Origin: Acidobacteriota bacterium
GTDB lineage: Bacteria > Acidobacteriota > Terriglobia > UBA7540
NCBI GenBank assembly: GCA_031292775.1
Contig: JARLGN010000623.1
Location: 1-34,622 of the forward strand
Direction: 5' to 3'
Length of the DNA stretch: 34,622 nucleotides
Shown: positions 31,026-33,794 of the stretch, in pieces
Numbering within the stretch: the stretch's first letter is position 1
How the letters are laid out: each line of letters starts with the position of its first letter
The notes under the pieces: generated by a model
Database searches by the model: none
The model's input: only the letters and a program-made list of their open reading frames with translations
Told to the model about the DNA's origin: nothing
Position numbers and translations under genes: made by a program

Positions 31026-31156
31026 GCAAGCGTAGCGCGGCATCTCTCAGTTTCAAATCTTCCTGTTCTAACCTGGTGGCCAACCCACGCAGTCAATGGC
31101 CAGTTACCGCCTCAGTATGATAGCCCCTTCGCAGGCTGCACTCGAAGCCGCGAAGC

Positions 31157-31348
31157 GGCGGCAGATTGTGGCCCATGGCACCAGCCATGGGAATAATGCG
31201 CAAGAAGAGGGACGAGCCCCGGCAGGGGCGGCAGAAATCATGGACTACTCGTTTGCCGAAGACGTTCTTTCGCCCCTGCCGGGGCTCCCACAGCAATTGC
31301 GAGCGCGTCTTTTTCCCACGGCTCTCGCCATGGGCCACATTCTGCCGG
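31157..31348. repeat. Long imperfect inverted repeat with perfect 17-bp inner arms
   Basis: Outer arms GGCGGCAGATTGTGGCCCATGGC / GCCATGGGCCACATTCTGCCGGC; inner arms GAGCCCCGGCAGGGGCG (31214..31230) / CGCCCCTGCCGGGGCTC (31271..31287). Confidence 0.85.
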
Positions 31349-31542
31349 CCCTGCCGGGCCTAAGTCCCCACCGCCGGGACAAAGCCACGGCGCCCAGCCT
31401 GCACCCCTATAATATAGCCTCCATGAGAATATTTCAGTTGACAAGCCAGGTAGCCGGTATACACTAGATGCTGAGGCCAGCTCCCGCTGGCGGACCGGCA
31501 AGACCGCGGACCTATACAACGGGTCGGCGCAAACCATAATGA

Positions 31543-31659
31543 CAGGTGTCAGGTATCGGGTATCAGGTGTCAGGGGAAAAGCAGAATCCCGTCCTGTGGC
31601 GCGATGCCCGAATCCCGTGTCCCGAATCCCGCCCCCTGACACCTGGCACCTGACACCTA
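31543..31659. repeat. Inverted repeat AGGTGTCAGG... upstream of the AANRRN-type gene
   Basis: AGGTGTCAGGTATCGGGTATCAGGTGTCAGGGG (left) and CCCCCTGACACCTGGCACCTGACACCT (right). Confidence 0.75.
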
Positions 31660-31677
31660 CTCTATGGAGGTTCTTAC

Positions 31678-32832
31678 ATGTCGCTCATCAAAAAGCACGC
31701 AATGACCGCAGAGAAACTCGCCGCGAACCGGCGGAACCAGAAGTTTTGCCATGGTCCGGTAACGGACGAGGGGAGAGAGCGCATCCGCGCCGCCCTGCGG
31801 CGTTTTGGTTACAACGCACCGGCGGAGGAGGCGGCGATGCGCGCCCTGGGCGAAGAGCCCGCCGACTTCCAGGAACTGCTGGAAGGGCTCTGGGAGGAAT
31901 GGGATCCCGCAGGCGCCTCGCAGGAGGGCGTGGTGATCTCCCTGGCGCGGGCCCTGTGGCTGATGAATCGCGCCGCCCGCATGCAGGAAGGCTACGCCGT
32001 GCGCCAGGCCACGGAGGTGAGCAGCGGGCGGCAAGACCGGTTGCACGTGCAGATGATGCGGCTGAAGATGACGGAGGAGAGACTACAGCGGGTCGCCCAG
32101 GCGGTGGCCAATGAGCACTACGTCACCACTCCCGAGGACCTGGAGAGGATGAAGAACCTGCACCAGGAGGGCGTGTTGAAGGAGATGGGCGAAATTGCTC
32201 TGGCCCTTTTGTATCAACTTCAGCCGCCGGGCACGGGTGAAGACGGGGTGGACCGAAACGAGCAGCAACGCCGGGTCCTCGTGAGGATCAAGGAGATCTT
32301 TGGTCTGAATTCCGACACTCCGCCCAAGGTGAGAGTACCGCCAGGTTCGAGCCAGCCACAGGACTGCCAGCAGGATGGCGGCTCTACCGAGATGCCGCCA
32401 AGCTCCAGTCCGGCACCGGCCGACCTGCCAACCGCTTCAGGACAGGTTCCGGCTGGCGCTACCCAACCAGCGCGGACGGAGGTGCGATATCCCAGGATCA
32501 CGGCGGAGGAATGGGAGGCACGGGAGCGGCCCCGCCAGCTTCTGGAGAATCTCCTCACGCGGCAGGTGGAGACTTGCAAGGCGCAGCGCAAGGCCATCCT
32601 CAAGGAGTCCGTAAAGGGTCCGTCGCCTTACGAGCGCGCTGCGGAAATCGCTCCCACTCACGCGGACGCGCGCCTGATGCGGCGAATGCAGGATTCCAAC
32701 CTTCGGGAAGCCCGACGGCTTACCAACCTGCTGCTGAAAATTAAACGCTACGAGCGCCAGAGGGAAGCATCAGCGAAAACCGAACCTTTCCAAGATGTAC
32801 CTGAAACAGAAGGAGTTAGCCTTTTAGAGTAA
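31678..32832 (+). CDS. Hypothetical protein of the 'AANRRN...GP.T.EG' type
   Basis: RBS-like GGAGG upstream; MTAEKLAANRRNQKFCHGPVTDEGRERIRAALRRFGY N-terminus; helical body; Pro/Ser-rich linker; second charged helical region. Confidence 0.8.
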   Translation: MSLIKKHAMTAEKLAANRRNQKFCHGPVTDEGRERIRAALRRFGYNAPAEEAAMRALGEEPADFQELLEGLWEEWDPAGASQEGVVISLARALWLMNRAARMQEGYAVRQATEVSSGRQDRLHVQMMRLKMTEERLQRVAQAVANEHYVTTPEDLERMKNLHQEGVLKEMGEIALALLYQLQPPGTGEDGVDRNEQQRRVLVRIKEIFGLNSDTPPKVRVPPGSSQPQDCQQDGGSTEMPPSSSPAPADLPTASGQVPAGATQPARTEVRYPRITAEEWEARERPRQLLENLLTRQVETCKAQRKAILKESVKGPSPYERAAEIAPTHADARLMRRMQDSNLREARRLTNLLLKIKRYERQREASAKTEPFQDVPETEGVSLLE

Positions 32833-33180
32833 AAATGTCATAAGGCTTTATTCCATTAGAACTAAACCACTTAGCTCGAAACACGGGATCCGGAGAGAAG
32901 AAATGGGTACGGCTTTCCAAGATGTGCTAGAAACAAAAGGGGTTAGCGATGATTAACGGAAACCGCACGAAAATGTATATTATTGAAACTAATATAGTTG
33001 GTCAATTTCATGGTGGGCAGAACCGTGAAAAAAAAGGGGCAAAAAACGGGGTCAATTATCGCTAAGTTATTGAAAACACATATAGAAAAAATGTCAACTT
33101 TTCGCCTTTCCATGATATTTATGAAAACAAACGAGTTAAGCCACGCTTTCCAAGATGTTGATGAAAAGAAAGGAGATTGC
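32786..33180 (+). repeat. Three degenerate copies of the gene's 3'-terminal sequence
   Basis: CTTTCCAAGATGTACCTGAAACAGAAGGAGTTAGC (32786), CTTTCCAAGATGTGCTAGAAACAAAAGGGGTTAGC (32913), CTTTCCAAGATGTTGATGAAAAGAAAGGAGATTGC (33146). Confidence 0.8.
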
Positions 33181-33309
33181 TGTTGGGCACGAGATCGGAG
33201 AGAATTGATCATTGGTGCAGGCGGCAAAGGCAACACAGAGCCGGAATTCTCACCACGGGTTTGGAAGGGCGAGGCTTCACAGTCTGCGGAAAAACCATGG
33301 CTATTGCAC

Positions 33310-33364
33310 GCCCTGAAAGGGCATAAGTTAATAGCCGGGGGCAATGCCCCATAAGCGCTAAGAT
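33310..33364. repeat. REP-like hairpins
   Basis: GCCCTGAAAGGGC (33310..33322) and CCGGGGGCAATGCCCCATAAGCGC; the latter recurs inverted near 33585..33613. Confidence 0.75.
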
Positions 33365-33427
33365 CATCCTTGATCTCTCTCGGCAAATCCATGATAAGCG
33401 ATTTAGAATGAATGCAAAGCAGGGATT

Positions 33428-33563: not shown

Positions 33564-33584
33564 TTATTTGAGGGTCAGTTGTTA

Positions 33585-33794
33585 TCTTTGCGCTTATGGG
33601 GCAACGCCCCCGGAATTCGTAACGTTCAATTCCCGACCCCGAAGGGGTCGCATTACTCCAATGCCGGATGCGCGAAACCTGAGTGGGACCTGAGTGATTC
33701 CAACATGGAATCGACCCTTTCAGGGTCGGACCTGTCGATGGCACGTCTTCCGGGGGCGTTGCCCCCGGCTACTCAATCAATCCCCTGCGGGGAT
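33585..33794. repeat. Cluster of short hairpins (REP/BIME-like)
   Basis: CGACCCCGAAGGGGTCG (33634), GATTCCAACATGGAATC (33696), CGACCCTTTCAGGGTCG (33712), CCGGGGGCGTTGCCCCCGG (33750), ATCCCCTGCGGGGAT (33780). Confidence 0.85.

Follow-up and report, generated by a model that had tools for sequence, protein, structure and literature searches.

A dispersed repeat unit of Terriglobia (Acidobacteriota) with a one-sided array of sites that share a concertedly changing 7-bp code

The window analysed here, a 34,622-nt stretch of an Acidobacteriota genome (contig JARLGN010000623.1), contains a full copy of a repeated unit whose predicted parts follow one another in the order TAGSCT box, sigma-70-like promoter, ORF and array of repeated sites (Table 1). 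The array block at 32786-33180 (+) is 395 bp long and AT-rich (38% GC, as against 64% GC in the ORF), and in it one site occurs five times, accompanied by half-sites. Scanning the window with a site matrix built from ~70 related elements, we found five plus-strand sites (GATG at 32794, 32921, 33063, 33114 and 33154; scores 19.8-31.7) and no array sites on the minus strand; when the window was shuffled three times by mononucleotide, no matrix score reached 8. The sites are non-palindromic and their spacing is rigid, the step from site 3 to site 4 being 51 bp in 62 of 69 copies and 50 bp in the rest, and that from site 4 to site 5 being 39-41 bp. A preliminary description of the locus had reported that the 3′ end of the gene recurs at 32913 and 33146 in an AT-richer stretch. 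These three copies are real, as is the difference in base composition, and a fourth copy lies at 33106. The same description had pointed to a resemblance between CACGGGATCCGGAGAGAA and CACGAGATCGGAGAGAA and to a mini-ORF, MGTAFQDVLETKGVSDD with its stop codon. The resembling pair is present at 32883 and 33188 with one indel, but its downstream member is not conserved in other copies read, which makes the resemblance a probably incidental one. The mini-ORF can be read in the sequence but lacks conservation as a reading frame.

Table 1. Positions of the unit's features within the window
Feature	Position	Strand	Description
TAGCCTC box	31415-31421	+	Upstream of the promoter, near the unit's left edge
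Sigma-70-like promoter, TTGACA-16-TACACT	-35 at 31438-31443, -10 at 31460-31465	+	Predicted from sequence
384-aa ORF	31678-32832	+	Family with ANRxN...GPxT..G motif; C-terminus FQDVPETEGVS encoded by the first array site
Array site, first copy	32786-32820 (35 nt); matrix site 32787-32818	+	TTTCCAA + GATGTACCTGAAACAGAAGGAGTTA; doubles as C-terminal codons of the ORF
Array site 1 of the core model	32913-32947; matrix site 32914-32945	+	TTTCCAA + GATGTGCTAGAAACAAAAGGGGTTA; 86% identity to the first copy over 35 nt
Half-site (site 2)	32976-33000	+	TATATTATTGAAACTAATATAGTT; lacks the conserved 7-mer; other copies have a half-site at the equal position
Conserved A/G tract	33027-33051	+	GAAAAAAAAGGGGCAAAAAACGGGG; from the alignment of copies
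Array site 3	33056-33087	+	GTTATTGAAAACACATATAG..; best conserved site
Array site 4	33106-33140; matrix site 33107-33138	+	TTTCCAT + GATATTTATGAAAACAAACGAGTTA; 69% identity to the first copy; overlooked in the preliminary description
Array site 5, final site	33146-33180; matrix site 33147-33178	+	TTTCCAA + GATGTTGATGAAAAGAAAGGAGATT; 77% identity to the first copy over 35 nt

Other repeats lie around the unit. Just upstream of the promoter is a facing pair of Acido-Lenti-1 hairpins at 31146-31191 (-) and 31315-31361 (+), which score 40.8 bits (gathering threshold 37) and 30.0 bits, the latter below gathering; a second such pair occurs near the copy in L009. Directly 3′ of the array we found a second dispersed repeat family (CCGGGGGCAATGCCCC...) at 33240-33361, with further segments at 33335-33364 and 33584-33613, which is unrelated to the array and recurs in more than 20 places in its own genome. 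Two more very abundant dispersed repeats lie beside the element at L208 in genome G003 (1083-1205 and 1218-1322); each of the genomes G003, G005 and G007 gave more than 30 matches to them.

A search of the window's own genome with 31600-33400 revealed that 32786-33173 matches a second locus at 80% (E 5e-97) and that some ten further block matches reach E 1e-10 or better, mostly to copies that lack the ORF. Because the block recurs in this way, the array repeats are not due to chance. Approximately 17 array copies were collected from this genome and ~80 from the genus overall. The site 3 pattern matched 15 times in the own genome, at least 33 times in G001, seven times in G002 and four times in G006, and its reversed control matched nowhere in the genus genomes; G003, G005, G007 and G008 carry a diverged array type. 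With a looser pattern, 23 of the 39 genomes and 15 of the 18 genera of the bacterial family were matched, and the reversed-pattern control again gave zero. In genus g13, G136 yielded more than 20 copies and G020 more than 35, counts that are lower bounds because many G020 matches sit at contig ends. A scan of named public genomes returned Terriglobia/Acidobacteria assemblies, several of them labelled bog or fen, and a few unrelated bacteria. A phage origin was considered and not adopted; the viral scan (IMG/VR) returned one isolated pattern match. Literature searches covering the motifs, repeats in Acidobacteria and elements of the non-autonomous kind returned no description of the unit.

The majority of copies lack the ORF yet keep the array, and many of them keep the promoter. 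ORF-less copies have promoter and array in common with ORF-bearing copies and show remnants of the ORF's start and end at the promoter and the array; partial copies with only the ORF start or only the ORF end were also found (L070, L010, L011 and L185). Conversely, relatives of the ORF have the array directly 3′ in congeners and also in other genera (L036, L038, L041, L043 and L296). The preliminary description had suspected a multi-copy gene family rather than simple decay and had suggested comparing the 3′ ends and tails of paralogues. Paralogues were found, and because they share both the 3′ end and the downstream tail, a coincidental resemblance between unrelated ends is not what the comparison returned; nor is the pattern one of simple decay.

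Allowing at most two mismatches to TTGACA-16/18-TATACT upstream of the array in 81 genus copies, we predicted a promoter on the forward strand in 24 copies, compared with 4 of 81 on the reverse strand. These 24 promoters were picked blind to the TAGSCT box, which lies no more than 60 nt upstream of 20 of them and in only 5 of 1175 control windows. TAGSCT is also enriched 3′ of the array (18 of 79 copies vs 3 of 632 control windows), and the window's own copy has none within 130 bp after the array. There is no inverted array at the unit's left edge: the hexamer TAGSCT is all that is enriched at both edges, and terminal inverted repeats are absent. The copies in G136 resemble one another more closely than those elsewhere, and their edges could be resolved to a few bp; full copies there start at the -35 box, stop at the array end and have unrelated flanks. 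Nearly all copies read in the genus of G136 and G020 have a palindromic A-tract, AAAAAAAGAATTCTTTTTTT, before the first site (e.g., L299 3025-3050), at the position where the block shared by these copies starts. No target-site duplication was recognised at element copies.

Every element has its own 7-mer preceding GATGTT, which is itself nearly invariant. The 7-mers are TTTCCAW or CTCTCGC in the own genome, TTGCCAA, TTTCCAC or GCCAT-TATG in G001, TTGCCAC in G002, TTCCGGC in G003, G005 and G008, CGAAGCTAGGAA in G136 and CGAAGCTGTTAT in G012. Sites within one element differ in their 7-mers by a mean of 1.10 of 7 positions. When a given site is instead compared between elements, the mean difference is 2.31 inside a genome and 3.07 across genomes, and none of 2000 within-genome partner permutations reached the observed concordance. 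The 7-mer of site 3 lags behind those of the other sites. In the parts of the repeat outside the 7-mer and GATGTT, a site is closer to the same site in other elements than to its neighbours in its own element, as if the sites evolved independently; repeats within arrays are degenerate, and spacers are homologous between elements. Our central result is this concerted change, which is confined to the 7-mer. Had whole repeats been converted or shuffled, the entire repeat would have become homogeneous, and this is not what we see; the pattern fits several sites read by one factor. Two elements at matching places in two species, L018 (G000:C370) and L180 (G001:C19), carry TTTCCAT and TTGCCAA, and this one pair suggests that the code can change without a new insertion.

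These patterns bear on the mechanism originally proposed for the locus, i.e., repeated 3′-end recombination or tail shuffling among the copies of a gene family. Paralogues do have 3′ ends and tails in common, as tail shuffling would predict, but the array is fixed and rigidly spaced, occurs with and without a gene, has position-specific site sequences and changes in concert at the 7-mer only, and we give this mechanism next to no credence. The earlier observation is confirmed, and its interpretation is partly supported.

Purifying selection acts on the ORF (omega 0.22-0.47 vs relatives), and its product is predicted to be all-helical, with a mean pLDDT of 77. We found no matches above threshold for the window ORF in Pfam, NCBIfam, PHROG or PDB sequences, and Foldseek searches with its model returned nothing at E <0.001 among PDB folds; domain, sequence and fold searches detected no transposase, recombinase or other enzyme in the ORF. 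One of 16 members of the ORF family matched a PHROG terminase small subunit (3.5e-4), which we do not count as evidence. We found no intact ORF alongside TTGCCAA, the site type seen most often in G001. The leader was considered as coding sequence and rejected, as its ATG is conserved but the reading frames diverge; at 31540-31660 it contains low-complexity CAGGTGTCAGG / CCCGAATCCCG tracts, and other copies have similar tracts in their leaders and right flanks. In the window (FQDVPETEG) and in L036 (SHDVVENKG) alike, the last residues of the ORF are encoded by the first site, as would be seen if the repeats were remains of a translated, repetitive C-terminus (DVxENK). Such a coding relic is highly improbable: the distances of 142 and 40 between sites are not divisible by 3, which puts the sites in different frames, the frame is not unbroken and ORF-less copies keep their arrays.

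We also considered whether the array acts as RNA. Folding of the array showed no excess stability over shuffles (z +0.35 and -0.39), no consensus base pair was recovered across 17 array copies, and Rfam identified no family over the array, returning only weak chance matches and the nearby Acido-Lenti-1 hairpins. A structured non-coding RNA of the Rfam type was rejected on these grounds. Guide-like pairing was likewise rejected, as the reverse complement of an element's own 7-mer is not enriched in array flanks (0.090 vs 0.099). Because fold, consensus pairs, Rfam match and reverse-complement enrichment are all lacking, we infer that a multi-site platform acting at the level of DNA is favoured. 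By analogy with CsrB-type or Hfq-binding sponges, the copies might instead be genes for an unstructured, A-rich RNA that is made from the promoter and titrates an RNA-binding protein through a repeated linear motif. The strong predicted promoter retained in ORF-less copies, the linear A/G-rich motifs and a leader that is free to vary would all suit such genes, but the absence of fold signal, consensus pairs and an Rfam family over the array speaks against them, and concerted change of the 7-mer is harder to explain with a common housekeeping RNA-binding protein; we regard an RNA of this kind as quite improbable.

The genomic position of the copies raises a different question. We called neighbouring genes with a simple codon-usage script and named their functions by eye from the first residues. 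Among 61 copies not belonging to the TCCGGC group, 51 have a co-directional next gene within 600 bp (p ~1e-7). The locus pairs L018/L180 and L022/L119 (G000 vs G001) have 3′ flanks that are orthologous over 2.5-4 kb and 5′ flanks that are not. Elements at matching places that keep the 3′ but not the 5′ flank count against an insertion reading, since simple insertion does not predict this pattern. We also observed the unit upstream of a gyrA-like gene in both L035 (G007) and L046 (G001), the latter copy having the full ORF. Co-directional next genes, conserved 3′ and lost 5′ synteny and the recurrent gyrA-like neighbour would each be expected if the unit were a cis-regulatory upstream region, with promoter and array forming a long leader or operator of the next gene and the 7-mer a regulator site whose specificity drifts per lineage. 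On the other side, the next gene is convergent in 9 of 9 counted TCCGGC-type copies, the downstream genes appear ordinary and mixed in function and share no common role, and dozens of copies with repeated edges and internal-deletion forms would be unusual for regulator sites. A cis-regulatory role is rather unlikely in our judgement, if the most substantial of the alternatives. In one orthologous comparison, that of L208 (G003) with G007 and G005, a site looks empty, which is better read as a later deletion because G007 retains a degenerate last site. Two other loci were rejected as empty sites: the 5′ flank of L010 is rearranged, and L122 gave no clean site.

In our favoured reading, to which we give about an even chance, the region represents an ORF-bearing copy of a Terriglobia unit that is dispersed, resembles a transposable element and carries multiple sites at one end only. 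In its favour are the dispersal of the copies, the arrays next to ORF relatives, the ORF remnants, the recurring edges, the TAGSCT enrichment on both sides, the rigid spacing, the concerted 7-mer and the lack of RNA structure. Counting against it are the lack of any enzyme detected in the ORF, of an inverted array at the left edge and of a recognised target-site duplication, the outcome of the L208 comparison, the TTGCCAA type with no intact ORF, and the flank pattern described above. On this transposable-element-like reading, an AT-rich array of about seven rigidly spaced sites would follow an ORF of a helical family at one end of the unit only, and most copies would be internal-deletion or decayed derivatives that retain the array and in many cases the promoter, in the way that non-autonomous elements retain their ends. 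The array would be a multi-site binding platform in which the constant part (GATGTTnnTGAAAACAAA), together with the A/G tract, supplies the architecture and the 7 bp before each site supply the specificity, read by one putative trans factor; all sites in one element would then have to change together, because the same factor would read all their 7-mers. The concerted 7-mer lends indirect support to such a predicted factor. We infer that the array may be bound by a protein, perhaps the product of the ORF, and that this putative binding may serve movement of the unit. A bolder reading, which seems to us unlikely, is that the unit stands for a new class of mobile elements in bacteria, one whose multi-site end is one-sided, whose 7-bp recognition code shifts together with a trans-acting partner, and whose spread depends on a helical protein family not yet described in place of any known transposase. 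If the proposed reading is true, a large, mostly uncultured soil group has an abundant dispersed unit that the family libraries searched do not recognise, whose site code shifts within a constant architecture, and which would offer a natural series for a nucleic-acid-binding factor and its many dispersed sites co-changing in specificity. For annotators, it would mean that the AT-rich 3′ tails in these genomes, often at contig breaks, are instances of a single unit instead of genes in decay.

Several known systems resemble the unit in part. The genome of Ca. Solibacter usitatus is reported to be similarly repeat-rich, with many short repeats, mostly <50-100 nt, and many paralogues, and the parts of its description available to us contain no account of the unit or array (PMC3174227). 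CRISPR-like and iteron arrays also place direct repeats after a promoter or leader, but in the unit the spacers are conserved between elements, the repeats are degenerate and no cas or replication gene was seen. Like bacterial MITEs and small interspersed repeats, e.g., BOX, RUP, SPRITE (PMC3049150) and TIMEs (PMC4133298), the unit is dispersed, intergenic, mostly non-coding, high in copy number and lineage-specific. Short ORF-less copies and the longer coding copy have promoter and array edges in common, as MITEs and their longer relatives would. Unlike MITEs, the unit carries a promoter of its own and has a long form with an ORF; its array is non-palindromic with concerted 7-mers, and its ends have no inverted repeats. 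In REP/RAYT systems, each genome has its own repeat type, which is thought to track a specific protein. The unit resembles REP sequences in having a genome-specific repeat type; its sites are non-palindromic, unlike the palindromic, GTAG-headed REP, and no tyrosine transposase was found in its ORF. The ends of Tn7, Tn5053/Tn402 and Mu carry several transposase sites at fixed spacing. The unit differs from Tn7, Tn5053 and Mu in that its array is at one end only (five plus-strand and no minus-strand sites in the window) and in that neither DDE transposase or partner genes nor a duplication was seen. The unit is like these elements in having several ~25-32 bp direct sites, rigidly spaced and AT-rich, beside the element's edge, and in having short derivatives that keep the ends.
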